From Promethearchaeota archaeon (GTDB lineage Archaea; Asgardarchaeota; Lokiarchaeia; Sigyniarchaeales; SOKP01), in assembly GCA_011364925.1 (NCBI GenBank), contig RDOA01000007.1, forward strand, positions 70,936-115,492: a stretch of DNA of 44,557 nt. The letters run 5' to 3'. Both the position numbers and the translations under genes were made by a program. Below the pieces are notes generated by a model. The model did not search any database. It was given only the letters and a program-made list of their open reading frames with translations, and was not told the DNA's origin. Position 1 is the stretch's first letter; every line of letters begins with the position of its first letter. Positions 6,167-43,441 of this stretch are shown here, in pieces.

Positions 6167-9040
6167 TTAGAAAAAGATGCCCAACTTACGAGCTCCATAT
6201 TTAACGATTTCAAAAGATACAATACAGATTAACGAAATCAAAAAGCACACTAACCAATCCAAACCTGTCAGAAACATAAACCTAAAATTTAAACCCCATT
6301 CAGCTAGCGTTACTTGAAAACCCGGAATGTACATGAGCGCGAGAAATACACTGAACAGACACCCGATTAATAAATACATAAACTTTGTGCTGTCTTCTTT
6401 AATGCTCTTAATCAACGATTTATTAGGTCTGCGAATTTGAAAAACTAAAAACGATTCACAAAAGAATAATGTAACCATGAGCATCGTAAGAGTTTTTGCT
6501 TCTTGAGGATAGACCCATACATCTAAAAGAGGTATATATTCTGGAAAGGTAACATAACCTCCACTTAAGCCACCAAAGTTGAGATTTTCTGGAAACACCG
6601 GATAAACTCCCGTAATTGTGGTGAAATAGACTACAAACATACTAATCGATAATAAAGCTCCAAAGACAAATAAAAGAATAACAGTTTTTTTTGAAAGAAT
6701 CTCTTCTTCATCGTGAGGCTTTTGTTTCATAACATCCTTCGATGTTCTATCAAAAGTGAGAATAAGCCCCGGAAATAAGTGCAATGTGACTGAGAGGAAA
6801 TACCATTGGAATAAAAATGCTTTATCTAAGAAATAGGGAAATTTTAATATTATAGACAGAATAAACTGAACAATTCCTTCAAAAACATTAATACAAATGT
6901 AAAAGAACACTACAGCTCTTATACGCGAAAATATTCCACGCCCTTGTTTGATCCCCGTAACTATTGAATTAAATGAATCGTCGCTTATAATCATATCAGC
7001 GGCTTCTTTGCTTACATCTGTTCCTTGAATCCCCATAGCAATGCCAGCATCTGCCATATTAAGAGCTAAAGCATCGTTCACTCCATCACCTGTCATAGCT
7101 ACGACTTGATTCGCGTCTTGATATTTTTCTATAATTTCTTGTTTATGTTCAGGAGATACTCTTGCAAACACTTTAATTTTGCTGAAATCATAAAACGAAC
7201 TTACATCCTTTATTTCTTTTCCTTCAACCACAGTTTCATCTTCACTTTGGATTATTGAAATCTGCTTAGCAATTGCTCGAGCGGTTTTTACCGAATCTCC
7301 CGTAATCATTACAACTTCGACTCCCGCATCGTGGCATTGTTCGACGCTTTGTTTTACACCTTCTCTGGGAGGGTCTAAAATTGTACAAAATCCAATATAT
7401 ATCATATCGGATTCACACAATTCTCTACTTCTATCGTCTTCTGGAGGGAGAGCATCTAATTTTTTATAACATAAACTTAAAATCCTAAAGCCCTTTTCAG
7501 CATAAGCATCTGCAATCTTCATAATCTTTTCCTTAATCTCATCTGTGAGATCTAACTCTTGGTCTTTATATAGAACTTTTTTACATAGTGGCAATAATAT
7601 CTCGCTCGCACCTTTAGTGAAGGAATAATACTTATCCTCTCGCTTATAAATTTTAGTCATCCGCTTTACTTTAGAATCAAACGGATATTCTTTAATATAC
7701 TCGAAATCTTCAAGTAAATAATCTCCCATTCCTTTTTGAAAAAGTACCATTAAAGCACCTTCGGTTGGAGAGCCAATAACGTTCCAGTTTGGAATTACTT
7801 TTCCCGATACTACAACTTCATTTTTTACCAAAGCTGAATTATTATTTAGAAAACCTGAAGTGAGGAGCAATTTGAGTTGAGGAAAATCATCAATATGCTT
7901 TACGATTACAGAATTTTTGGGATCATCTATTAAAATAATTTCTCCTTCTGGACTATATCCGCTACCTGTAACCTTATAAGTTGAACCGTTTGTCCAAACA
8001 TGTTGAATTGACATTTGGTTTTTAGTTAACGTGCCGGTTTTATCCGAACAAACTACGCTTACACGTCCAAGACTATCTACTGAAGCTAAATTTCTGATAA
8101 TTACCCCATGTTGAGCCATAGCTAACACCCCAGTTAGTAGGATAATTGTAACGAGTAGGGGAATATTAATTGGAAGCAAATCTAAAGCGGAATTCAAGCT
8201 CTTTACTACATCAATAGTACCGTATGCAAAATAAAGTATGATTAATATAATAAACCAGACTCCAAAGACAATTAATCCAAGCCATTTTCCAAAGTTGTTC
8301 ATTTTCTGTCGAATAGGAATATCTGAAGTACCAGCTTCTTCTAGTCCTCGCGAAATCTTTCCAATTTCTGTATCTTTTCCCGTTTTTACTGCTATTGCAG
8401 TAGCATTACCTGTCGTGACAAAAGTTCCATAAAAAACCATATTATGTTTTTCACCAATTGAAATATCTTCTTTCTTTAGAGCAGTACCTTCTTGAGTTTT
8501 CCTTACAGGCTCTGATTCACCAGTAAGACTAGACTCATTAACTTCGAGATTAGAAGATTGGACTAATCTGCCATCTGCTGGTACTCTATCTCCCTGTTTT
8601 AAAACTAGTAGGTCTCCTGTTACAACATTTTTAGTCGGTATGTCAGCTTTTTTTCCATTTCGGATAACAGTAGTAGTAGGAGCAGTCATCTCTCGTAATG
8701 CGTTTAACTTTTTTGTTGCTCTATATTGCTGAATGATTGCTACAAAACAATTAAGAGCTACTATTCCCAAGGTGAGAAGGATAAAAACTAAATCTTTTTC
8801 CCCACCAAAAACTGAGGCTAGAAATAAAATTAACGCCCCAATTAAGTATATCACAATCAACCAATTAAATAACGGAGCAAGATAGATTTTAATAAAACCT
8901 TTAGATGCTTTAGGAATTTCGTTAGGCCCGTATTGTTCTAGCCTTTTTTGGGCTTCAGCATCCGATAAACCTTTAGTAGAGTTAGTTTGAAATTTGTTGT
9001 AGATTTGCTCTAACTCCACATTAAAATAAGTCTCTTCCAT
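6167..9040 (-). CDS. P-type cation-transporting ATPase (paralogue 1)
   Basis: A 957-residue ATP-driven cation pump. The actuator motif is TGES (173-176), the phosphorylation site CSDKTGT has Asp333, and the hinge motif is TGDGVND (650-656). About ten membrane helices are present, six of them after the P domain, as in P2 and P3 pumps. Membrane-site residues are unusual. M4 has P-I-N-I-P (290-294) where SERCA has PEGLP. M5 keeps N718-x-x-E721, aligning with SERCA Asn768/Glu771. M6 has His754 where SERCA has Asp800. P-I-x-x-P in M4 recalls P3A proton pumps, while the length and M5 recall P2 pumps. The transported ion therefore cannot be named. The ATG start is clear. It lies 189 bases downstream of a paralogue on the same strand. 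Confidence 0.95.
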   Translation of the reverse strand: MEETYFNVELEQIYNKFQTNSTKGLSDAEAQKRLEQYGPNEIPKASKGFIKIYLAPLFNWLIVIYLIGALILFLASVFGGEKDLVFILLTLGIVALNCFVAIIQQYRATKKLNALREMTAPTTTVIRNGKKADIPTKNVVTGDLLVLKQGDRVPADGRLVQSSNLEVNESSLTGESEPVRKTQEGTALKKEDISIGEKHNMVFYGTFVTTGNATAIAVKTGKDTEIGKISRGLEEAGTSDIPIRQKMNNFGKWLGLIVFGVWFIILIILYFAYGTIDVVKSLNSALDLLPINIPLLVTIILLTGVLAMAQHGVIIRNLASVDSLGRVSVVCSDKTGTLTKNQMSIQHVWTNGSTYKVTGSGYSPEGEIILIDDPKNSVIVKHIDDFPQLKLLLTSGFLNNNSALVKNEVVVSGKVIPNWNVIGSPTEGALMVLFQKGMGDYLLEDFEYIKEYPFDSKVKRMTKIYKREDKYYSFTKGASEILLPLCKKVLYKDQELDLTDEIKEKIMKIADAYAEKGFRILSLCYKKLDALPPEDDRSRELCESDMIYIGFCTILDPPREGVKQSVEQCHDAGVEVVMITGDSVKTARAIAKQISIIQSEDETVVEGKEIKDVSSFYDFSKIKVFARVSPEHKQEIIEKYQDANQVVAMTGDGVNDALALNMADAGIAMGIQGTDVSKEAADMIISDDSFNSIVTGIKQGRGIFSRIRAVVFFYICINVFEGIVQFILSIILKFPYFLDKAFLFQWYFLSVTLHLFPGLILTFDRTSKDVMKQKPHDEEEILSKKTVILLFVFGALLSISMFVVYFTTITGVYPVFPENLNFGGLSGGYVTFPEYIPLLDVWVYPQEAKTLTMLMVTLFFCESFLVFQIRRPNKSLIKSIKEDSTKFMYLLIGCLFSVFLALMYIPGFQVTLAEWGLNFRFMFLTGLDWLVCFLISLICIVSFEIVKYGARKLGIFF

Positions 9041-9229
9041 GAAACATTCTCCCGCGACTATTAATGATTTTATAGTTGATTATATTAAACATTTATATTA
9101 AATTTAGAATAACATTTCTTATTTTTATTTTATAGTATTTTTGTTAATAAAATTAGATATGAAAACAAAAAGCACCTTTACTTATTAAACCTTTAAAAGC
9201 CTTTAAATGAGATAATAACAGAGAATTAA

Positions 9230-12115
9230 TTAGAATATCAACCCTTTCGATCTGGCAATATATTTAAAAATTTCTATCCCTAACAAACCCGGCAGTGCCA
9301 AAGCAATACAGATTAACCAATCTGTTCCACTAAGAAACAGGAAATTAATTTGAAGGTTTAGTCCAAATTGGTCGTTTATATAGTAATTTACTGGTTGTGA
9401 AAACGATACGAAAAGTACTTGTAAAGCAAGAGTGAACACGCAAATTAAAAAAAGCGCAGGACTAAATTCTTTTGTAATACTTTTAAATAAGTTTTTATTA
9501 GGACGCCGAATACTCCAGATAAACATAGTTTCAAGAATGTAAAGCGTTGTAACAAACATCGTTCTTGCTTTTTGCGCCAATAGTTCGGCAGGTGTAGAAC
9601 CAAATGGTATATAACTAAGACCAGGATTTAGATTCCATTCGTTTAAGGGGATCATTCCTCCTAAGGTTAATTGTAGTGCTAAGACTAGTCCAATACCCAT
9701 TAAAATTGCATGGATTACCAAAAGTATCCACATATTCTTATTTAACAGTTGTTCTCCGTTTCTGGGGGGTTCTTTCATTACATCTTTGGGATGTTTATCA
9801 ATTACTAAAGCCAAAGCGGGTAGAGAATGCACAATCCCATAAATGTAAATATGTTGCCACTCGGAACTAAAAAGTTGAAATAATGGAACGAATTCATAGG
9901 AAAAGAAAATGACAGATTCCATTAAATTTAAACAAATAAAAAAGTAAATTATTGTGCGAATTCTCGAAAATAAGCCACGCCCGATTTTTACACCCCTTAC
10001 GATAGATGTAAAATTGTCATCGCTTATGACCATATCCGCAGTTTCCTTAGCAACGTCAGTTCCAGTTATACCCATAGCTATTCCTGCATTTGCTAGTTTC
10101 AAAGCTAATGAGTCGTTAATGCCATCACCAGTCATAGCACAAATACGATTCTTTGATTGGTATCTTTTTACTATTACTTCTTTATCAGAAGGATTCACTC
10201 GAGCAAAAACTGACACCTTTTCGAAATTTTCACCACTTAGATCCTTAATTTCGTTACCCTCTACAACTAAATCTCCTTCTTTATAAATTCGCATCTGGGA
10301 GGCAATCGTTTTTGCTGTAGCAGGGTGATCCCCGGTGATCATTGCAATTTTAATGCCAGCAGATTCAGCTTCTTCAACTGATTCTCTAACTCCAATTCTT
10401 GGTGGGTCAAGTATCGAAACATACCCCAAGAAAACAATTTGATTTTCAATATCTGTTCTGACGAACTCTTGATTATTCTTAATTTTTCTATAACCAATAG
10501 CTAACGTTCTATACCCTTGGTTTGCTCGTATTTGAATATTTCCAATTATGGAGGTTCTAAGTTTTTCAGTTAACGGTTCTTCCGCTCCATTTATTTCAAT
10601 TTGAGTGCTTATATCTAAGATTCTCTCGGGAGCTCCTTTCGAGAACGCTAAAAACTCAGAGTCATTTTCGTTAAGCTTACATACAGTTGTCATTCGTTTA
10701 AGATCAGAATTGAATGAGAATTCCTTGGAAAGAGTATACTGCTTTTTCAAATCGTAAGGAAGAAATCCTGCCTTCTCTGCTAACACGAGCAATGAAGCCT
10801 CTGTTGGGGAGCCTAAAGCTTTTCTTACGGCTAATTCTTTCGATTCTTTTAGTCGTACTTTTACGTCTTCATATACTAATTTAGCAGTGTTATTTAACAC
10901 GCTTGATTCTATAAATTTTATAAAAGTTGGATTTTCCTTTAATTCTGTAGCTTTTCCGTTCTCTTGTATCATCCCTTCGGGATCATAACCCGAACCTGAA
11001 ACATGGTATTCTTTATTGTTTATCCAAAACATCTCGACAGTCATTTCGTTCTTAGTAATAGTTCCCGTTTTATCTGAACAAATCACAGATACTCTTCCAA
11101 GGGATTCTATTGCGGACAAATTTTTAATGATAACTCCGCTCTGAGCCATATTTAGTACCCCAGTAACAAGCACGAGGGTAGTTAATAGCGGTAAATTGAT
11201 AGGCATAATTCCCATCGATCTTAAAATAGATGATATAACCGCTTCTCTAATGTGTTCGCCAACAAATAATCCTTCTAACCCTAAAACTGCAAACTTATAC
11301 GCGATTAACGCAATTAGATAAAGGATAACTATTGTTCCTAAGATGTAACCTAATCGATTCAGCTTTCTTGTGAGTGGAATTTCCTCTATGCTTCCCATTT
11401 CGTTTAATTGGTTCGAAATTTTCCCGATTTCGGTATCAAGTCCCGTCCCGGTGACTAACGCTTTCGCTCTCCCCGTATGTACATAAGTTCCCATAAATAC
11501 CATATTAATTTGCTTTTGAATGGATAAGTCTTTTTCTTCTAGTAGTTCAGTACTTTTTTCCGCTGGTTCACTTTCTCCAGTAAGAGGTGCTTCATCAACC
11601 GATAGATTCGTTAACTCGATAATTCTCGCATCTGCGCCAATTTTATCGCCTTGATCTAATAGAATGATATCTCCTGGAACGAGTTCTTTTGAAGGAATCT
11701 CAAATTGAATCCCATCTCGTAACACAACGGTTTTCAAAGCGGCAATTTGTCTGAGGGCTTCTAACGCTTTTCGAGCCCGATATTGTTGGGTAATAACTGT
11801 AATTGAATTTATAATTACTACGGTAAAAGTGATGATAGTAGAAGTTCGATCTCCGAGTAGCACAACAATACTCCCTGAAACTATCAATATTATTATTAAG
11901 AAATTAAAAATTGGTGCGAGGTATATTTTCCATAATGATTTTCTAATTTTCGGCAATTCATTGAAGCCATACTTTTGAATTCTGCCTTCAATTTCTGATT
12001 CTTTCAATCCTTCGTTAGGACTGGTTTTGAATTGAGTGAGTAATTCGTCTAACGGCGTGAAGTAAGCTTGATTAGAAGGGTGTTGGGTTTGATTCATAGG
12101 AAGATCTACTTTCAA
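9230..12115 (-). CDS. P-type cation-transporting ATPase (paralogue 2)
   Basis: A 961-residue pump sharing the architecture of its neighbour and clearly a paralogue. TGES is at 179-182, the phosphorylated aspartate is D348 in CSDKTGT, and TGDGIND is at 662-668. M4 reads P-I-N-L-P (305-309), M5 has N730-x-x-E733, and M6 has His763 at the SERCA Asp800 position, so the odd site residues are the same in both copies. The farthest in-frame start is TTG at 12115; an ATG at 12097 would remove six residues and may be the true start. The two genes probably arose by tandem duplication and may act together or in different conditions. The ion is unknown. Confidence 0.94.
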   Translation of the reverse strand: MKVDLPMNQTQHPSNQAYFTPLDELLTQFKTSPNEGLKESEIEGRIQKYGFNELPKIRKSLWKIYLAPIFNFLIIILIVSGSIVVLLGDRTSTIITFTVVIINSITVITQQYRARKALEALRQIAALKTVVLRDGIQFEIPSKELVPGDIILLDQGDKIGADARIIELTNLSVDEAPLTGESEPAEKSTELLEEKDLSIQKQINMVFMGTYVHTGRAKALVTGTGLDTEIGKISNQLNEMGSIEEIPLTRKLNRLGYILGTIVILYLIALIAYKFAVLGLEGLFVGEHIREAVISSILRSMGIMPINLPLLTTLVLVTGVLNMAQSGVIIKNLSAIESLGRVSVICSDKTGTITKNEMTVEMFWINNKEYHVSGSGYDPEGMIQENGKATELKENPTFIKFIESSVLNNTAKLVYEDVKVRLKESKELAVRKALGSPTEASLLVLAEKAGFLPYDLKKQYTLSKEFSFNSDLKRMTTVCKLNENDSEFLAFSKGAPERILDISTQIEINGAEEPLTEKLRTSIIGNIQIRANQGYRTLAIGYRKIKNNQEFVRTDIENQIVFLGYVSILDPPRIGVRESVEEAESAGIKIAMITGDHPATAKTIASQMRIYKEGDLVVEGNEIKDLSGENFEKVSVFARVNPSDKEVIVKRYQSKNRICAMTGDGINDSLALKLANAGIAMGITGTDVAKETADMVISDDNFTSIVRGVKIGRGLFSRIRTIIYFFICLNLMESVIFFSYEFVPLFQLFSSEWQHIYIYGIVHSLPALALVIDKHPKDVMKEPPRNGEQLLNKNMWILLVIHAILMGIGLVLALQLTLGGMIPLNEWNLNPGLSYIPFGSTPAELLAQKARTMFVTTLYILETMFIWSIRRPNKNLFKSITKEFSPALFLICVFTLALQVLFVSFSQPVNYYINDQFGLNLQINFLFLSGTDWLICIALALPGLLGIEIFKYIARSKGLIF

Positions 12116-33298: not shown

Positions 33299-33997
33299 TT
33301 GGTTTCGAAAGATCAAAAGAAATTAGAGAGAGTCGTAAATTTTATGAAAAAGGGATTGGAATCCCTTTCTGACGATTTAGAAGAAACAGTTAAAGGAATT
33401 AATGATTTTATAAAATCATTAAACAAGGCACTTAAAGATTTGAAAGATGTCTCAGTAGAACCATCATTAAAGACTGTAAGTACATCCTCTAAAAAAGTTG
33501 TATCCACCTCAACGGGTCAAGCGAAGACTGCTGCTGCCAGCACATTATTCAATTTATTAAGCGGTACTCCTGGAGCGGCACCGGCTATTGCAAGTGCTTC
33601 TCCGTCTATTGAAGCCCCACCTTCTTCTCCTACGGTTGGACCTCCAAAAAGACCTGCAAGTGGAGTTCCTCCAAAAGCTCCCTCTACAGGTGGCCCTCCT
33701 AAGCGTACTAATCTACCACCTGCACCCAAATTACCTCCAGTAGCTGGAACTGGTCCGCCACAAGCACCGAATAAAGGAGTTGTTCAAACACCATCATTTG
33801 CTAAAAGACCAACTCCACCTGCCGCTCCCGCTACCGGAATTCCCGCAAGACCACCTAGTGCGCCATCAACTAGCTCTGCTCCAGCCCCAGCTCCAGCTCC
33901 TGTAAGTGCAGCTCAAAGTGGTGGGGGATTAAGTTCTTTACGCGACGAAATGCTAGAGGAATTAAATCGCTTAAAGAAAATCATGAGAGGAGATTAA
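33299..33997 (+). CDS. Coiled-coil / proline-rich protein of unknown function
   Basis: The 232-residue soluble protein has three parts. Residues 5-50 form an amphipathic coiled coil (KLERVVNFMKKGLESLSDDL). Residues 90-203 are a disordered Pro/Ala/Ser region with repeated G-P-P-K-R, P-P-K-A-P and (AP)4 elements. Residues 211-230 are a charged helix (LRDEMLEELNRLKKIM). The layout recalls eukaryotic proline-rich adaptors that bind profilin or SH3-like partners and oligomerise by coiled coils; that is inference from architecture. The start is uncertain: TTG at 33299 is the only conventional one in frame. A good AGAGG-ATG pair at 33281-33293 lies in another frame that closes after 12 codons. An actin-family gene lies 2 kb downstream. 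Confidence 0.75.
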   Translation: MVSKDQKKLERVVNFMKKGLESLSDDLEETVKGINDFIKSLNKALKDLKDVSVEPSLKTVSTSSKKVVSTSTGQAKTAAASTLFNLLSGTPGAAPAIASASPSIEAPPSSPTVGPPKRPASGVPPKAPSTGGPPKRTNLPPAPKLPPVAGTGPPQAPNKGVVQTPSFAKRPTPPAAPATGIPARPPSAPSTSSAPAPAPAPVSAAQSGGGLSSLRDEMLEELNRLKKIMRGD

Positions 33998-34097: not shown

Positions 34098-34844
34098 ATG
34101 GAAAATAATGATTTAAATACTGTCGATAACGAAATCCCAATTGTAGTTCCAAATCGTATTTTAGTGTTTGCTGGCCATCCAGACGACGAAATAATCTCAT
34201 GTGGCGGTACTATAATTAAATATCAAGCTTTAGGATCCCAGATAATTATAGTGGTAGCAACCATTGGATTAGGCGGTTATGCAAAAAATGAAGAAGAAGC
34301 CAAGATAGAATCTCGAAGAAAACAGGAACTCGATATGATTAGAGCAGTATTAAATTGCAAAATTATTGAATTAGGATACTCTGAACTAAGCGTAGATCGA
34401 GATCATGTATTAGAAATAACAAATTTAATAAGAGAAATTAAACCACAAGTCATTTTGCTCCCTCACTATTCAGATTTTCACCGAGTCCATAGGAATCTTT
34501 CTTTAATTACAAAAGAAGCAATATACCATAGTTCTACAGGCAAAGCATATGGAGGTTCGGGACGAAATTGGACCCCTTTAGGAGCATATTACTACGAATC
34601 TCCGTCATGCAAATTTCAATACATTGACAGTTCGGTCTTTATCACCGTAGACATTGAAAAACAGTGGGAGAAAAAAAGAGAATTATTTAATAGAGTTTAT
34701 AAGTCCCAGAGTGAAGTTTTAGAGAGAGTAGTAGAATGGGCCGAGGATACTGCGATTTTACGCGGAAATGAGATCAACTCTCAATATGGCGAAGCTTATA
34801 TACCTGATACTACTTATACACCATTGAAAATTTTGTTAGTATAA
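34098..34844 (+). CDS. PIG-L/LmbE family N-acetylglucosaminyl deacetylase
   Basis: A 248-residue zinc-dependent deacetylase. The zinc/catalytic motif A-G-H-P-D-D-E is at 25-31 (H27, D30) and the second motif is P-H-Y-S-D-F-H-R-V-H with H123, D126, H128 and H131; the usual HPDH has Val in place of its Asp. Members remove N-acetyl groups from GlcNAc-linked lipids, mycothiol/bacillithiol precursors or oligosaccharides. In archaea a role in glycolipid or surface glycan synthesis is the most likely. There is no membrane helix, unlike eukaryotic PIG-L. ATG start. It ends directly against the converging membrane protein gene, with no base between stop codons. Confidence 0.93.
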   Translation: MENNDLNTVDNEIPIVVPNRILVFAGHPDDEIISCGGTIIKYQALGSQIIIVVATIGLGGYAKNEEEAKIESRRKQELDMIRAVLNCKIIELGYSELSVDRDHVLEITNLIREIKPQVILLPHYSDFHRVHRNLSLITKEAIYHSSTGKAYGGSGRNWTPLGAYYYESPSCKFQYIDSSVFITVDIEKQWEKKRELFNRVYKSQSEVLERVVEWAEDTAILRGNEINSQYGEAYIPDTTYTPLKILLV

Positions 34845-35780
34845 TCAGTTTCTTTCCCAGTACTCTTTAAGTTTTACTCCTAAATCCGATCCAATCGGAG
34901 TGGAACTATACGCTTTAGAATAATAATTTAAATCTGATAAAAAATCCTCTAACCTGTACAATTTAGAATATTCTCTCATCCGTTTATCATGTATTTGTTT
35001 AGTTTCGCTAAGAGAAGCTATCGCGTCAAAATCAGTTTTAATAGCCTTTAAATCTCTAAAACTTAATTGAAAGTAATACTTTCCATGCTTTCGAATTTTA
35101 AACGGTACCCATAATAGATACATTAAAATGATTCCTAAATTAAACTCGAGCAGAGTATTTATTATCATAGTTAAAAAACTCCAACCACCTTGTTCCTGAC
35201 GAATTCCTGAAACTGAAAGAGTAAATTCGAGAGCAAATTCAACTAATGTTCCAACAAGAAATAGATATAAAATATCTTCTAATCTTAGTTTTTTCTTAAA
35301 ATATAATATTGTAGCAACGACAATATTAATAAGGACTAATATTAATTCGTTTAATCTCTGATTATCGACATTCATATCTCTATATACTTTAATGATTGCA
35401 TCGTTTAGAGGTATAATTTGAGATCCCACAGCAACAAGAGTCCAACCAATGTAAAGTAATAATGTCCAAAATAATAACTCTTTTCTATTTCTTTTTTCAA
35501 ACATGACTATTACATAAGAGAACTGAACAAATCCGGGTGAAAAACAGAACCATACAAAGAACAGAAAGGGATTTATTGAACCAATATAATGCCTTGTTTG
35601 AGTAATTAAATACCAATACACATAATCTACGAAGATATATATTATCCAACCAACTAACCCCCACAAAATTGGAGTCCAATACTTCTTTTTGATTAAAAAG
35701 AACACCCAAATTGTTATAAAGATGATGTCAAAGTAAATAAAATCTATTCCTATAGTTCTAGCCACTACTGAGGTTGTCAT
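34845..35780 (-). CDS. Multi-pass membrane protein of unknown function
   Basis: The 311-residue protein has about eight predicted membrane helices in its first 235 residues, many aromatic (for example VDYVYWYLI and FLFFVWFCF). A 75-residue soluble tail follows that is Tyr/Lys/Asp-rich and probably cytoplasmic (LRAI-like segment RDLKAIKTDFDAIASL, then YSKLYRLEDFLSDL). I do not recognise a family. ATG start at 35780. It lies tail to tail with the PIG-L gene and head to head, 211 bases apart, with the actin-related gene. The divergent promoter arrangement with the actin-related gene could mean shared control, but no operator is evident. Confidence 0.75.
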   Translation of the reverse strand: MTTSVVARTIGIDFIYFDIIFITIWVFFLIKKKYWTPILWGLVGWIIYIFVDYVYWYLITQTRHYIGSINPFLFFVWFCFSPGFVQFSYVIVMFEKRNRKELLFWTLLLYIGWTLVAVGSQIIPLNDAIIKVYRDMNVDNQRLNELILVLINIVVATILYFKKKLRLEDILYLFLVGTLVEFALEFTLSVSGIRQEQGGWSFLTMIINTLLEFNLGIILMYLLWVPFKIRKHGKYYFQLSFRDLKAIKTDFDAIASLSETKQIHDKRMREYSKLYRLEDFLSDLNYYSKAYSSTPIGSDLGVKLKEYWERN

Positions 35781-35991: not shown

Positions 35992-37104
35992 ATGAATCTA
36001 ACTGTAGTATTAGATATTGGGCAATTTTCAGCTAAAGCGGGATTTGCGGGAGAAGATATGCCATCTCAAGTGTTTTTTACTATTGTAGGAACGCCTAAAT
36101 ATCGACAGATTGATTACGAATACACAGGTCCTAGGAAAGACGATTTCTATGTCGGAAATGAGATTCAATCGATCGGGTTGTATAAACTCTATTATCCCAT
36201 AAATAAAGGAATAATTCAAGATTGGCTTTCGTTCGAAAAGATAATAGATTACATTTTTTATAATTTAAGAGTAGATCCGAGCTTAGTTAATGTGTTATTT
36301 GCAGTACATCCTTTATTTCCTTATAGTGATTTAAAAAGATTATTTGAATTATTTTTAGAAAATTATCAATGTAGAGCTTTTTATCCCGTATTAGATTCTA
36401 TGCTTACATTATACGCAGGCGGGTTCCAAACGGGATTAGTTGTAGAGATCGGAGATAGCCTTACCAGATTAACTCCGATTTATCAAGGATACAAATTAGA
36501 TCACGCGATAAAGCATATCGATATTGGTGGGAGAACTCTCACAAGATTTATGGAGAAAATTTTAGGTGAAAGAGGTTTTTCCGCAGATTCCTCAATCAGA
36601 AGAGAATTAGTCAGAGCTTTAAAAGAAAAGGCATGTTTCGTCTCTCTCGATTATAAAGAAGATCTTAAGAGAGTTGAACAATACGAAAAGGAATATTCTT
36701 TACCAGATGGTTCCACAATCTCGCTAGCGAAGGAGAGATTCGAGGTTCCAGAATTACTATTCAATCCATCTATAGAATTAGAGGAACGATCCCTTCCAGA
36801 AGCAATCATGGATGTAATTGATATGTGTGACGTAGATGTCAGACCAGATTTATTAAACAACATTTTTTTATCAGGAGGATCATCTATGTTTCCTAATATT
36901 AAGTCAAGAATTTATCAGGAATTAGAAATTGAATTAGCTCGTCGAAGTAAAAAAAATCAGGTAATCAAAATCATTGCTCCCAGGGAACGCACTTTTTCAG
37001 TTTGGGTTGGAGGTTCAATACTATCAATGATTCCTGAATTTGAGCAGAACTGGATAACTAGGGCAAAATATTTCAATGAAGGCATCCCTAAAAATCTTCT
37101 CTAA
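35992..37104 (+). CDS. Divergent actin-related protein
   Basis: A 370-residue actin-fold protein, colinear with eukaryotic actin over its whole length: KAGFAGED (15-22), LYYPINKGIIQDW (66-78), GDSLTRLTPIYQGYKLDHAI (154-173), VRALKEKACFVSLD (207-220), FLSGGSSMFPN (292-302) and ERTFSVWVGGSIL (332-344). Lys18, Glu214 and Lys336 of actin have matches, so nucleotide binding is likely. Catalytic spots differ: phosphate loop 1 reads D8-I-G-Q-F for DNGSG; Asp135 replaces Gln137; Glu152 replaces Asp154; Asp155 (actin Asp157) is kept; Arg159 replaces His161. The D-loop is changed and the HRKCF end is missing. It is therefore an ARP, unlike conventional lokiactin, and its polymerisation and ATPase are uncertain. 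ATG start. Confidence 0.93.
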   Translation: MNLTVVLDIGQFSAKAGFAGEDMPSQVFFTIVGTPKYRQIDYEYTGPRKDDFYVGNEIQSIGLYKLYYPINKGIIQDWLSFEKIIDYIFYNLRVDPSLVNVLFAVHPLFPYSDLKRLFELFLENYQCRAFYPVLDSMLTLYAGGFQTGLVVEIGDSLTRLTPIYQGYKLDHAIKHIDIGGRTLTRFMEKILGERGFSADSSIRRELVRALKEKACFVSLDYKEDLKRVEQYEKEYSLPDGSTISLAKERFEVPELLFNPSIELEERSLPEAIMDVIDMCDVDVRPDLLNNIFLSGGSSMFPNIKSRIYQELEIELARRSKKNQVIKIIAPRERTFSVWVGGSILSMIPEFEQNWITRAKYFNEGIPKNLL

Positions 37105-37211: not shown

Positions 37212-37577
37212 ATGGAAGATCCTCAAAATACGAATCTTGAGCAATCAAAATTACTAAAAAGATATTATAAACCAGATTATTCTCAATTATTTAATAAATT
37301 GAAAGACCTTAAAACACCCGTAAAAAACGACATTTTAATATCCTTGCTAGACGGAAATTGGCACACAGAGTTAGACTTAATTAGAGTAGCGAAACAAAAA
37401 ATAAAGTATATGGGTGCCGTTACTTTGGGAACAATGATACATTCATTGAATCACCAACTCAAAAACGATTATGTTGAGAAGAGAATAATAAACGGCAAAC
37501 TCTCCTACAGAATATCAGATAACTACGTTGGGCTTACTCGAGCTGCTTATAACAAATACAAGTTTAAAATGGATTGA
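37212..37577 (+). CDS. Small winged-helix protein
   Basis: The 121-residue protein has a disordered, charged start (1-35) and a winged helix-turn-helix domain. Helix 1 is PVKNDILISLLDGNW (36-50), the middle segment is HTELDLIRVAKQKI, the recognition helix is LGTMIHSLNHQLKND and the wing is VEKRIINGKLSYRIS (88-102). It could bind DNA as a regulator. Winged helices also occur as protein-protein modules, as in ESCRT-II, so function is open. ATG start at 37212, with GTGGAG seven bases upstream. It is on the same strand 107 bases after the actin-related gene and converges with the topoisomerase gene. Confidence 0.72.
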   Translation: MEDPQNTNLEQSKLLKRYYKPDYSQLFNKLKDLKTPVKNDILISLLDGNWHTELDLIRVAKQKIKYMGAVTLGTMIHSLNHQLKNDYVEKRIINGKLSYRISDNYVGLTRAAYNKYKFKMD

Positions 37578-37599: not shown

Positions 37600-39771
37600 T
37601 TACCTTCTTTTTACACATTCCTCTTTTATAATTTGAAAATCTGAACAATTAGAGCAAAAAGCATTAGTTCCTTCTTTATAACTCGCACTCCAACATCTAG
37701 GACATATATAATAGGTCAAACTCTTATTACTCTTCACTTTTGTAATTTTAAAAACGTTGAATCCACATTTTGAGCAAGTTGTATTTTTAAGTATATTGAC
37801 TCTTCCTGTATTTGGAACTGATATATATGTTTTACAATTGTTGTCAGTACACGCAAGGAACCTTTTATTCTGAGAAGTAGTAACTAGTTTCATAGGGTTC
37901 TTTTTGCATGTGGGGCATTGGGAAGTAGTTAAAGGGAAATTTTGTTGCATTGCTGTTTTTAAATTTCCCTTCACTTTATCAAATTCGAAGGTTATAGCTT
38001 TTATATTACTTCGGAATTTATCAAACAAATCGAGGAATAAGTGCTTTACTGTCTTTACAACATCATCCATCGATTTTCTCTTTTCCTTAACGTCCTCGAG
38101 TAGATTCTCAACGTAACGAGTGAACTCAGGTTTTAAAAATGGTAACCACACCTTAATTAATTCACTTATGAGATATTTACCCCATTCTGTTATTTTAAAG
38201 CGGTTTTTAGCAACACGATGAATTAATTTACGATCTTCTAATATTTTAATAATAGTTGGACGGGTAGATTTTGTTCCTAAATGCTCTTTTTCCATCAATT
38301 TTAGTAAAGATGTGTCTGAGTAATGCGGTGGTGGTTGAGTTTCTTTTTCGTTCAATAGGATTTTGTTTATAGCAAGTTGTTTAGCTTTGATTTCAAACAA
38401 CGGTTGATATTGCTTTTTCAAAAAAGGAGCTATTTCGTAAAAACCACTTTCTACAAGAGCAACTATCTGGGAAGTAAATATTTCATTTTTAATCGATAAC
38501 CTAAGTGTAGTTCTTAACTCCTTTGCAGGTTTTCCAAAAAGAGCTAAATAATGTCGCGCTAAGATATCGTACACTTTCTTTTGAAGACTATTTTCGAATT
38601 TCGAACTATTTTGCTCTAAACTTACCAATGGAGTAATTGGGGGATGATCTCCGGCATCAACCTTTCCTATAGTTGGCTTCATTCGATTTTCCGTAAACAG
38701 CTTGGTAGTATAAGATCCATAGTTTGAATGAGGTTTAAAGTTCTGAAGGTATAATTGGTGGTCAAATGTAGAATTATATTTGTCGCTATCAGTCCTAGGA
38801 TAAGAGATAATTTGATTTAGGTATAGTGAATTCATTGTGTTCATTGCCGCTTTTGCACTAATCCTCAAAGTTCTAGTCAGCAATACAAGTGCTTTGGAAG
38901 TGTTTAAAGGCGTTGGGGGATTAATTATTGCTGAATCTCTTGTGTTGTTTATTATTAATGCGATTTTCTCATTTTTAATATTTTGATAAATTTTCTTTGC
39001 TTCGAGTTCCTTTTCCTTGATAAACGGATTTTTGATATGCATCGCTTTAATAATATGAGAATTGTGGACTAAATCAGCTGTAATCGTCCAGTATGGCTCG
39101 GGAACAAATTGTTCGATTTCGAGGTCTCTAAGATAGATTAAATAGAGCAACGAAGTTTGAACTCTTCCTATTGACACAAATCTGTTATGAATTTCGTCCA
39201 GTATCGGCTTAAAAGTGTTAGTAACCTCCCGTGTGCTTGAGAAACCAATGATTGCGTCGATTATCGCTCGAGCTTCACCGGATTCTCCCCAGCTCCATTT
39301 TGGGCTTATCAGATTTTGATATTTTAAGAGTATCTCTCTTTTCTCTAGTGAACTTAACCATAATTGGTTGACTTTAATGTTTTTGTTAGCCTTTACGACA
39401 TAAGGCAGTGCGTCAAAAAGCCCGATATTACACCCTTCTATATCTGCGTCAGTCGCAATCACGCATTCATTGCATATTTTGGAATAATCATTTAGGGCTT
39501 TTATGTAAGATCTTGCGTAATTTATTGCCATTTTTGCGATTGCGCTAGGATTTGTAATGATCTCTCTTGGATCTGATTTAGTCCAACTTTTATACGCATC
39601 CGTGTTCCTATATTCTAATATATGTCCGCGAAGAGGCAATACATAAATATCTTTAGAAGGGATTTGATAGACATTTAGAAATTTAGTTCTATTGATTACT
39701 TTAACAGATCCTAATGCTTTAGCAATTGCTTCGGCAGCCTTATTTTTTTCAGAAATTATTAATGTCGGCAT
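37600..39771 (-). CDS. topA: DNA topoisomerase IA
   Basis: A 723-residue type IA topoisomerase that relaxes or decatenates DNA through a single-strand break. The Toprim domain has catalytic Glu8 (SEKNKAAEAIAKAL) and the metal triad D108-x-D110-x-E112 (ATDADIEGC; the residue after EG is Cys where Glu or His is usual). The gate region has SIGRVQTSLLYLIYLRDLEIE, and the 5Y-CAP segment ISYPRTDS carries the nucleophile Tyr324. The C-terminus holds zinc ribbons (CPTC ... C-x4-C, CSKC ... CPRC and a final CSNC). Length and zinc fingers fit archaeal TopA/Top3-type enzymes. No helicase part is fused, so it is not reverse gyrase. ATG at 39771. Confidence 0.95.
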   Translation of the reverse strand: MPTLIISEKNKAAEAIAKALGSVKVINRTKFLNVYQIPSKDIYVLPLRGHILEYRNTDAYKSWTKSDPREIITNPSAIAKMAINYARSYIKALNDYSKICNECVIATDADIEGCNIGLFDALPYVVKANKNIKVNQLWLSSLEKREILLKYQNLISPKWSWGESGEARAIIDAIIGFSSTREVTNTFKPILDEIHNRFVSIGRVQTSLLYLIYLRDLEIEQFVPEPYWTITADLVHNSHIIKAMHIKNPFIKEKELEAKKIYQNIKNEKIALIINNTRDSAIINPPTPLNTSKALVLLTRTLRISAKAAMNTMNSLYLNQIISYPRTDSDKYNSTFDHQLYLQNFKPHSNYGSYTTKLFTENRMKPTIGKVDAGDHPPITPLVSLEQNSSKFENSLQKKVYDILARHYLALFGKPAKELRTTLRLSIKNEIFTSQIVALVESGFYEIAPFLKKQYQPLFEIKAKQLAINKILLNEKETQPPPHYSDTSLLKLMEKEHLGTKSTRPTIIKILEDRKLIHRVAKNRFKITEWGKYLISELIKVWLPFLKPEFTRYVENLLEDVKEKRKSMDDVVKTVKHLFLDLFDKFRSNIKAITFEFDKVKGNLKTAMQQNFPLTTSQCPTCKKNPMKLVTTSQNKRFLACTDNNCKTYISVPNTGRVNILKNTTCSKCGFNVFKITKVKSNKSLTYYICPRCWSASYKEGTNAFCSNCSDFQIIKEECVKRR

Positions 39772-39955: not shown

Positions 39956-42900
39956 TTAATCCTTTGGCAAAGTAAAACTAAATTTTGTACCCAAATCTCT
40001 CCCTTTCGATTCAACCCAGATTTTTCCTCCATGTGCTTCGATAAAGCCTTTAGCGATATACAGCCCTAAACCGCTACCTTTATTAAGTGTAGAGTACCCA
40101 TCAACTCCTTGTTCAATTGAAACAAATTTTCCAAAAATTTTATCTATCTCTTCAGGAGTTAATCCTTTTCCATTATCTTCAATACTGAAGATAAGACTTT
40201 CATCATCCTCATCTACTAATATCGTGATATCTCCACCATTAGAAGTGAACTTGACTGCATTTGAAAGAAGATTTAGGAAAACTTGTGAAATTCTGAAATG
40301 ATCCACTTCCAAATTAAGATCTTTTGAGATTTCAAGATTTATGGTTAACTTTTTTTGTCTAATCTGAAATTCTAATTCAAGAAGGCAGTTATTTATTAGT
40401 TCATGAACATTTTCTTCTCTTTTAACTAATTCAACTTTTTTTGCGTCAATTTTCATAACATCTAACAATCGGTTTATATATTCCTCTAACCGATGGACAT
40501 TATTTAATACTCTTCCGAGATCCTCCTTAATCTCTTCACCTAATTTCTTTTCTCTTAGAAGTATCAAATCAATATACCCTCCTACAGAAATAAGAGGGGT
40601 TTTTAAGTCGTGAGCTGCAATGCTGATAAAATCTGTCTTTAACCTATCCAATTCCTTTAATTCAATATTTTGTTGTCTTAGGATTTTTTCAGATTCAATT
40701 AATTTCTCTTCTGCAATTTTTTTTTCTGTTATATCCTGAATAATAGCTTGAATCACAATTTCGTCTCCTAATTTAATCGTTGATAGTTCAGAGGAAACCC
40801 ACAAAGGTTTCGAGTGTTTATCAAAGATTTTAATGGTTTGAGGTTTCATAATGATCCGTGAAGGTTCTCCTTTATCGATAAGCTCAGAAATTAATCTCAA
40901 ATTTGGTTTAGTCTCATCAGGATAAATCCCTGCAAGTTGTAAGTAATTTTTTCCCAAAAGATCCGCTTTGTTATAACCAAAAAGATCGGTGGTTTTAGTG
41001 TTCATGTCCAAGACCTTACCATCATAATCTAAAAGAACAATACTAAAAGGAGAATTCTCGTATAAATGGCGATATTTTTCCTCAGATTCCTTAATTTTAA
41101 TTTCGGCCATCTTTCTATCGGTTATATCGCTAAAAGTAACAGCAAAATATCCTCTTTTTGGAGAATATCCTGAAACTTTATACCAGCGACCTAATGGTTC
41201 GGAGTAATCTTCTATGTTTATAGGTTCCCCCGTAAGACCTACAGCTCCAAATCGGCCGATCCAATCTGCAGGATCATTTTCAATTCCGGGTAACACCTCT
41301 GTCACAGTTTTTCCAATTAAATTGTTTATTTTTATACCAGTCATTTCTTCAAAATGAATATTTGCTTCGAGATATCTGTAATCACATGGTTTATTATTTT
41401 CATCTACAATTACCTCGTGGTATGCGAAAGCTGTATTCATATTTTCAAATAACGAGCGATATTTTTCTTCTGATTCTCTTAATCTTTCTTGAGCGAGATT
41501 CTGTTCTGTTACATCCATTATGAGTGCCAAGTCTGCAAATTTATTTTGATACATAATTGTTTTACTATAAGATTCAATCCGCTTAATTTCTCCGTTTTTA
41601 GTAGTTATTCTATATGAATCAGTATCAGAAATATTTTTTTCATCAAATAATCGGCTTCGAAGCCGTTCTTCAGCAGCTTCTCGATCTTCATCATATACCT
41701 GATTAATCATTTCATTTGATGTCCAACTCAGCATCTCATCAATTGAATATCCACTGATTCTTGACATCGCTTCATTTGCATATATTACTTTATTATCTTG
41801 AAGAATGGTAATACCTATCGCTGAATGCTCGGCAATCGTCCTAAACATTTGTTCTGATTCTTTTAACTTCTGCTCCGCATTTTTACGTTCTGTTATATCA
41901 ATTACTGAAATTAAATCAGCTGGTTCCCCTAAAAAATCTATTGATTTAGAGTAATTATCTAACCATCTAATGTCCCCTGATTTTGTGATCAATCGATATT
42001 GATAATTAGAAATGTAATCACTCTCGCCATGTTGTTTCTTACTTAATTGTTCCATGACTCTGATTCGATCTTGCGGATGAATATGTTCAAAAATTTTAGT
42101 AGGACCTAAAGCTAAAACTTCGTTGATAGTAAATCCACCTAAATTCGAGACTAATTGATTTGCATACTTTACTTTATTATCCTGTAAAATTGCTATTCCC
42201 ATTAACGAATTTTCTGCTATTGTTCTGAACTTTTGTTCTGATTCTCTAAGTTCCTTTGTTCTTTCTGATACGATTCTCTCTAGTTCTTTATTCAATACTT
42301 TCAATTCCTCTTCAGACTTCTGCAACCTTAAGTCAGCATTTTTTTTCTCAGTTACGTCTTGGATTAACACTTGTATCAATGTTTCCTCTCCCAATTTAAT
42401 TTTCGAGCTAGTTAAATTAATCCAGATGTCTAATCCATCTTTTCGAGTCATTTTTAACTCAAGTGGTTTCATAGATTCACCTTTCACAAAACTTGTAAAT
42501 TTGCTTCTAATAAGGGAGATAAAATGTTCTGGCCTTTCAAACATATTTAATATTTCCACAAAGTTTTTACCAATGAGATCTTCTCGGGTAAATGCGGATA
42601 GCATTACATCCGTAGTTGCATTGCAATCTATTAATGTACCGTTTAAATCAACGATCCAAATTGCGTAAGGAGATTTTTCAAAAAGGTGTCTATATTTCTC
42701 TTCTGATTGTTTTAACCGTTGTTCTAACTTAAATTTCTGAGTTATATCACGGGATATTCCATAAAATCCAACTTTATTTCCAATATTATCTTTATTTAAG
42801 TAAACCGAAGTTTCTACGATAACTCTCTCATTACCTTTTTTGATGAACTCAAATCGAAAAGAATCTGCGGGTTTTCCGGTTTTATAAACAGTATTAAATA

Positions 42901-43441
42901 CTTTAAACACCCTATTTTTATTTTCCTCATCCATCAGTAGTTTATAATTTTTCCCAATCATTTCATTTAGAGCATAACCCGTCATTTGAGAGAAAGATTT
43001 GTTCATAAATGTGAATGTACCTTCTAAATCTACTTCAAAATACGCTTCAACTATATTTTCTACAATATCACTATACTTCAATTGAAAAAAGGAGATGTTT
43101 CGAGCGGTTAAAAACAGTTTAATTTCTTGATTTGAGTTTCGAAATAATTTTCCTTTAAACTCATAATACTCAAAGCCTTCTTTTTGACGTATTCTTAAAG
43201 TTTCAGTAGCTTTGCCATGTTTCAATAGTTTCTGGAGATATTTTTGGCAATTTGGTATATCCTCAGGGTGAACAACATTGAATATTTTCTCGTTCAAACT
43301 GATATAGCCCAATTTTTCTAAATGAATTTTTTTGTTTACATATTCACATTTAAAATCTTCTTTTAAAACGAAAATTAGGTCTTCATAATTTTCTTTAAAG
43401 ACTTCTCCAATGTTATACCCAAAATCAGAATTAGATGCCAT
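39956..43441 (-). CDS. Multi-PAS sensor histidine kinase
   Basis: A 1161-residue soluble sensor kinase with no membrane helix. About seven PAS/PAC modules occupy residues 1-915, several with the linker DITERKNAEQKLKESE-like ends (for example DITEKKIAEEKLIESE) and sensor starts such as FRTIAENSLMGIAI. The HisKA domain has phospho-acceptor His944 in AAHDLKTPL. The ATPase domain has the N-box NAVKFTSNGG (Asn1061), DNGKG (Asp1089) and GSGLGLYIAKGFIEAHGG. No receiver domain is fused and no response regulator is adjacent, so the output partner is elsewhere. PAS domains may sense redox, ligands or light; no cofactor-binding residue can be assigned. ATG start at 43441. Confidence 0.94.
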   Translation of the reverse strand: MASNSDFGYNIGEVFKENYEDLIFVLKEDFKCEYVNKKIHLEKLGYISLNEKIFNVVHPEDIPNCQKYLQKLLKHGKATETLRIRQKEGFEYYEFKGKLFRNSNQEIKLFLTARNISFFQLKYSDIVENIVEAYFEVDLEGTFTFMNKSFSQMTGYALNEMIGKNYKLLMDEENKNRVFKVFNTVYKTGKPADSFRFEFIKKGNERVIVETSVYLNKDNIGNKVGFYGISRDITQKFKLEQRLKQSEEKYRHLFEKSPYAIWIVDLNGTLIDCNATTDVMLSAFTREDLIGKNFVEILNMFERPEHFISLIRSKFTSFVKGESMKPLELKMTRKDGLDIWINLTSSKIKLGEETLIQVLIQDVTEKKNADLRLQKSEEELKVLNKELERIVSERTKELRESEQKFRTIAENSLMGIAILQDNKVKYANQLVSNLGGFTINEVLALGPTKIFEHIHPQDRIRVMEQLSKKQHGESDYISNYQYRLITKSGDIRWLDNYSKSIDFLGEPADLISVIDITERKNAEQKLKESEQMFRTIAEHSAIGITILQDNKVIYANEAMSRISGYSIDEMLSWTSNEMINQVYDEDREAAEERLRSRLFDEKNISDTDSYRITTKNGEIKRIESYSKTIMYQNKFADLALIMDVTEQNLAQERLRESEEKYRSLFENMNTAFAYHEVIVDENNKPCDYRYLEANIHFEEMTGIKINNLIGKTVTEVLPGIENDPADWIGRFGAVGLTGEPINIEDYSEPLGRWYKVSGYSPKRGYFAVTFSDITDRKMAEIKIKESEEKYRHLYENSPFSIVLLDYDGKVLDMNTKTTDLFGYNKADLLGKNYLQLAGIYPDETKPNLRLISELIDKGEPSRIIMKPQTIKIFDKHSKPLWVSSELSTIKLGDEIVIQAIIQDITEKKIAEEKLIESEKILRQQNIELKELDRLKTDFISIAAHDLKTPLISVGGYIDLILLREKKLGEEIKEDLGRVLNNVHRLEEYINRLLDVMKIDAKKVELVKREENVHELINNCLLELEFQIRQKKLTINLEISKDLNLEVDHFRISQVFLNLLSNAVKFTSNGGDITILVDEDDESLIFSIEDNGKGLTPEEIDKIFGKFVSIEQGVDGYSTLNKGSGLGLYIAKGFIEAHGGKIWVESKGRDLGTKFSFTLPKD

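Follow-up and report, generated by a model that had tools for sequence, protein, structure and literature searches.

The locus

The window, a stretch of 44,557 nucleotides from the 3.9-Mb genome of a lokiarchaeial archaeon (G000), harbors a gene for an actin-related protein (ARP), which is listed in Table 1 with the features of its product and with its neighbors.

Table 1. Features of the window; occurrence counts refer to ARP orthologues or loci, in which residues carry actin numbers.
Feature	Position	Strand	Remarks
ARP gene	35992..37104	+	370 aa, ATG start
Phosphate loop 1, D8-I9-G10-Q11-F12 (actin D11-N-G-S-G15)	36013..36027	+	Q14 in 54/59, F15 in 53/59 orthologues
K15 (actin K18)	36034..36036	+	Phosphate-binding lysine kept; invariant in the ARP family
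H106 (actin A108, Pro-rich loop)	36307..36309	+	His in 54/60 orthologues
D135 (actin Q137)	36394..36396	+	Asp in 53/60 orthologues, Gly in 6, Glu in 1, Gln in 0
Phosphate loop 2, E152-I-G-D155-S-L-T-R159 (actin D154...H161)	36445..36468	+	E154 in 56/61, R161 in 61/61
K211-E212 (actin K213, E214)	36622..36627	+	Nucleotide contacts kept; invariant in the ARP family
T334 (actin K336)	36991..36993	+	T/I/V/M/A/F/R in orthologues, never Lys
c2, coiled-coil and proline-rich, C-terminal helix LRDEMLEELNRLKKIMRG	33299..33997	+	Upstream of ARP; near it in 49/63 loci
c7, PIG-L family de-N-acetylase	34098..34844	+	Upstream of ARP; PF02585, 73.5 bits
c1, winged-helix-like	37212..37577	+	121 aa; downstream of ARP, codirectional; weak AspA match, E=0.04
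Membrane-protein-like ORF	34845..35780	-	Between the PIG-L gene and ARP
Type IA topoisomerase gene	37600..39771	-	Syntenic with ARP in 49/63 loci
Histidine kinase	39956..43441	-	1161 aa; next to the topoisomerase gene
Two adjacent P-type cation ATPases	6167..12115	-	About 960 aa each, same strand

The gene c1 is found in 57 of the 63 ARP loci, mostly 100-200 bp downstream, and a PIG-L gene lies near the ARP in 37 of them, in both lokiarchaeial families that carry it, with a gap of only 18 bp in one locus of the second family (L123). These neighbor counts are lower bounds, because contig ends cut some of the loci. Searches of c1 and c2 against Pfam and PDB profiles gave nothing significant. Tandem duplicates of c1 occur in two loci (L106 and L108), and in Harpocratesius a c1-related domain ends a long disordered protein (L132). 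Only in the window and in the loci closest to it (L076, L077) does the membrane-protein-like ORF stand between the PIG-L gene and the ARP. The histidine kinase has several PAS domains.

Relatives of c2 (L177-L188) are spread across Asgard archaea. They contain 13-18% Pro and a conserved C-terminal helix, LRxEMLxELxRLKxIM, and their N-terminus is a coiled coil or, in some relatives, a membrane-like segment. The family could consist of profilin- or actin-binding assembly factors with a WASP/Ena-like layout, and to us the tail looks reminiscent of the LKK motif in WH2 domains. A heimdallarchaeal profilin has been reported to bind polyproline (PMC8410842).

A full-length actin-family protein

The ARP scores 297.9 bits against the Pfam Actin profile PF00022 (cut-off 27) over residues 4-364, and its best PDB matches are actins (E 2e-90). 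In BLAST alignments it shares 43.4% of its residues with yeast actin and 42.9-43.3% with the genome's two lokiactins. The AlphaFold2 model, built on an alignment of 52 Asgard actin-family sequences, has a pLDDT of 92.1 and a pTM of 0.89; an input of orthologues alone gave a pLDDT of 74 and a poor nucleotide site, and the value rose to 92 once lokiactins and other ARPs were added. Only the D-loop (42-48) is modeled with uncertainty. Foldseek superposition on actins gave a TM of 0.91 over 370 columns, which, together with the pLDDT, identifies the four-subdomain actin fold. The product is a full-length actin-family protein, and its first-pass annotation as an archaeal actin-related protein is borne out, the archaeon being an Asgard archaeon. 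The colinearity with actin that had been claimed from end to end holds nearly throughout, except for small gaps (one residue at actin position 93 and at least two near 233-235), an insert of about four residues in subdomain 3 inside the basic stretch ARRSKKNQ, and the C-terminal tail of actin past about residue 366, which has no clear counterpart.

The catalytic site

In actin, the attacking water is held by Gln137 and gives up its proton to His161 (PMC10062479; PMC9597168), and the flip that brings His161 towards ATP is dependent on Ala108 (PMC10062479). Reading the site column by column from alignments, in actin numbering, reveals that the ARP is changed at exactly the catalytic trio, plus Ser14, Gly15, His73 and Ala108. 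The replacements first noticed by eye, of Gln137 by Asp135, Asp154 by Glu152 and His161 by Arg159, and of GSG by GQF in the phosphate loop, each reappear in these columns. Loop 1 differs from actin by N12 to I9, S14 to Q11 and G15 to F12 and keeps D11 and G13, and loop 2 also has G158 replaced by S156 and keeps G156, D157 (D155) and T160. His73 is Lys in the ARP, and at position 108 lokiactin and actin carry Ala or Pro.

The residues that contact the nucleotide are present (D11, K18, G156, G182, K213, E214 and G302), as is G301, and across the whole ARP clade D11, K18, G182, K213, E214 and G302 are kept. The counterparts earlier proposed for Asp157, Lys18 and Glu214 are correctly aligned (D155, K15 and E212), but the one proposed for Lys336 is not, as the ARP has T334 there. 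This last difference is not diagnostic, because lokiactins also lack a Lys at this position, having Met or Gln.

Conservation and phylogeny

All ARP orthologues come from Lokiarchaeia: two families of one order account for them, apart from a fragment of a third family that is 50% identical and stops at a contig edge. Orthologues from the genus share 80-94% of their residues with the window ARP, the remaining members of the family 61-78%, and those of the second family 48-58%. The second family contains Prometheoarchaeum sp. MAGs as well as Harpocratesius repetitus. A profile of the ARP family gives complete orthologues 586-695 bits and every other actin in 228 genomes of the phylum at most 394. 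Residue counts were taken from 63 loci, leaving out at each position the loci cut off there. Among some 60 orthologues none has Q137 and none has H161; D157 is present in 52/61, K336 in none, and T160 is retained in the first family.

In the tree, the clade that carries the D137/E154 pair is supported at 100/100, with a stem of 1.4 changes per site, so that the pair does mark a clade, as the first-pass annotation had proposed to examine. The group closest to it, with weak support (90/90), is another set of Asgard ARPs, which likewise carry Glu154. Comparison with members of the genus yields a dN/dS of 0.02-0.04, with synonymous sites near saturation, and the ARP is under strong purifying selection. 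The residues shared by 61 orthologues, the clade and the dN/dS together indicate that the exchanges are old, fixed and selected. Chance or sequencing error is ruled out by the independent assemblies from which the orthologues come and by the dN/dS, and close homologues with canonical residues, which would have spoken for such an error, did not appear among the orthologues. An assembly error or a pseudogene has a negligible probability: in one orthologue (G019) a TAG interrupts the reading frame close to the end of a contig, yet the 61 orthologues share the same residues in intact frames under the selection just described. Where the ARP is missing, its absence looks like an assembly gap: the G023 contig stops shortly before c1, on its upstream side, and in G011, G014 and G001 c1 and c2 are missing too.

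The site is eroded further in a part of the second family, the lineage of Harpocratesius and Prometheoarchaeum, which has G137, D154, A157, I160 and R161, and this version is present both in a closed Harpocratesius genome and in Prometheoarchaeum MAGs. One member of the first family (L098) also has G137. The clade therefore contains a graded series, from D/E/R with D157, through D/E/R with A157, to G/D/R with A157. To our knowledge, no cultured strain carries the first-family version.

Other actin-family proteins of the genome

The source genome has five actin-family genes, which are two lokiactins, the window ARP and two more divergent ARPs. The search for a canonical lokiactin that had been suggested for this genome hence found two, and the earlier statement that known lokiactins keep most of the altered residues is borne out, as Q137, D154 and H161 stand in all 16 compared, which represent this and other Asgard classes. 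Elsewhere in the class, lokiactins of other families (L060, L062, L064 and L067) carry Thr where actin has D157. Both divergent ARPs have altered sites, T137/E154/W161 in L004 (G000:C22) and E137/N154/Y161 in L005 (G000:C90), and such proteins are not rare in Asgard archaea. The genome also has several gelsolin-domain matches and one weak profilin-like match; a search of it for ARPC4, run without a positive control, gave no match.

Lokiarchaeum ossiferum has three ARPs besides lokiactin, and the filaments seen in it are formed by lokiactin (PMC9834061). In the literature searched, mainly outside subscription journals, no publication was found that describes a changed catalytic trio in an Asgard ARP. 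Asgard ARPs as such are already known, and the window's clade is an actin-family group separate from lokiactin, for which descent from Arp4 has no support from identity or the best tree.

Comparison with known actins and Arps

Lokiactin (asgardactin 01) and the ARP have in common the actin fold, 43% identity and the contacts D11, K18, K213, E214 and G302. They differ in the site, which is DNGTG/Q137/D154/H161 in lokiactin and DIGQF/D137/E154/R161 in the ARP, in the basic stretch inserted in subdomain 3, and in the hinge and D-loop, which are divergent in the ARP. Lokiactin occurs in all Asgard classes (PMC9834061), whereas the ARP is confined to Lokiarchaeia. Membership of the ARP in lokiactin was rejected, given the fully supported separate clade, its long stem and the absence of the canonical residues. 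The weakly supported sister group, typified by L004, is likewise a lokiactin paralogue with an altered site and Glu at 154, but L004 has 525 aa, T137, W161 and 31% identity to the window ARP.

Among eukaryotic proteins, Arp4 (ACTL6A/BAF53) has also lost Q137 and H161 and has an aromatic residue for G15, and the second-family orthologues further share A157 with it. Arp4 differs by its large insertions, by keeping D154 and by being a subunit of nuclear complexes, and the window ARP is 26% identical to it, with 150 bits as against 302 bits to actin. Arp4 has Thr at 137 and binds ATP, with hydrolysis not above background; Arp8 has Glu at 137 (Glu266) and no His161, and combines tightly bound ATP with a weak ATPase (PMC3510490). 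The ARP resembles Arp8 in its acidic residue at 137 and the loss of H161, and is unlike it in that Arp8 has large insertions and keeps D154. Arp2 and Arp3 are 34% and 28% identical to the window ARP and do not group with it in the tree.

The human beta-actin mutant Q137A+D154A+H161A is altered at the same three positions, although it has Ala there and is otherwise wild type, while the ARP has D/E/R plus an altered P-loop. This mutant binds nucleotide and polymerises with no appreciable ATP hydrolysis (PMC6867828). In MreB the catalytic residue at position 137 is acidic (PMC9597168), but MreB belongs to another family with another filament type, and its residue at 161 is acidic where the ARP has Arg.

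Proposed function and alternatives

As the nucleotide contacts are kept, the ARP very probably binds nucleotide. Its ATP hydrolysis is probably strongly reduced. Binding without fast hydrolysis is the best supported reading, since mutation of the trio abolishes the ATPase of human actin and some orthologues have Gly137; the further erosion of the site in the Harpocratesius/Prometheoarchaeum lineage and in L098 likewise indicates that hydrolysis is not what the clade conserves. In having Y/F for G15 and A for D157, and in lacking Q137 and H161, the eroded version is like Arp4, which binds ATP without detectable hydrolysis. Slow hydrolysis may occur nonetheless, given that an acidic residue at 137 is catalytic in MreB and accompanies the weak ATPase of Arp8. 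The model that is somewhat favored proposes a Lokiarchaeia-specific paralogue of lokiactin that holds ATP-Mg, hydrolyzes it slowly or not at all, and works with lokiactin. Without the proton acceptor His161, and with Asp instead of Gln at the attacking water, the ARP would stay in the ATP (or ADP-Pi) state, like the human triple mutant, and could be a durable subunit, either of lokiactin filaments, as their cap, seed or copolymer, or fixed in a complex, that ATP ageing does not release. The two lokiactins, the gelsolin-domain matches and the weak profilin-like match leave the filament role to other proteins. The step from held ATP to a regulatory partner is an inference, and direct partnership with lokiactin is plausible at slightly less than even chances; a structural subunit permanently bound to ATP would be as good an account as the switch-like role first suggested.

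It could instead be argued that the site is that of a rewired but active ATPase, in which Asp137 works as the Glu of MreB does, Glu154 makes up for the shorter Asp, and His108 or Arg161 replaces His161, so that the protein would form dynamic filaments of its own with different kinetics. The altered residues are conserved and not decayed (D137 in 53/60, E154 in 56/61, H108 in 54/60 and R161 in 61/61), and the window's own family retains D137, E154 and H108 so tightly that selection for a working, altered site is conceivable. T160, retained in the first family, has its parallel in MreB, where the Glu is accompanied by a Thr and by an acidic residue near 161 (PMC9597168), and His108 belongs to the loop controlling His161 in actin (PMC10062479). 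This reading is nevertheless unlikely, as D137 has become Gly in the Harpocratesius/Prometheoarchaeum lineage and in L098 and the gene persists, and the acidic residue of MreB at 161 is Arg in the ARP; H108, D137 and E154 seem by eye to covary, but the one to three independent changes per position are too few to demonstrate it. As for filament contacts, the ARP is identical to lokiactin at 23/41 residues of the barbed-end groove and 8/21 of the pointed end, counted over actin contact residues, as against 157/359 overall. This difference is too small to be decisive between a partner of lokiactin and an independent filament former.

A third proposal, which is improbable, likens the ARP to Arp4, as a structural subunit locked on ATP in a complex outside the cytoskeleton, possibly on DNA and with c1 as a partner. 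The second-family orthologues do resemble Arp4 at the site (I/M12, Y/F15, A157, no Q137, no H161), and c1 stands alongside the ARP in most loci and weakly matches the DNA-binding AspA. The AU test leaves room for a joint clade of ARP and Arp4 (p-AU 0.37), but the best tree places them apart, and the identity to Arp4 is far below the 43% shared with actin and lokiactin. Moreover, c1 is only a putative DNA-binding protein, c1-like domains occur beyond the range of the ARP, and in several genomes c1 lies kilobases away from it.

Implications

The reading of the ARP as a lokiactin paralogue with held ATP bears on the question of whether the division of labor between a hydrolyzing actin and ATP-locked Arps predates eukaryotes. 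In its most specific form, which is rather doubtful, a vertically inherited, ATPase-disabled paralogue would stably seed or cap the filaments of lokiactin, its gene lying beside that of a proline-rich, possibly profilin-binding protein. If true, this would be a prokaryotic counterpart, separately evolved, of the eukaryotic partition between actin and regulatory Arps. Some 60 genomes offer a natural pair in one cell, a canonical lokiactin and a paralogue altered at the catalytic trio, and the graded series of sites permits a side-by-side assay. The clade may thus provide a natural test of why ATP splitting matters in the cytoskeleton of the closest prokaryotic relatives of eukaryotes.
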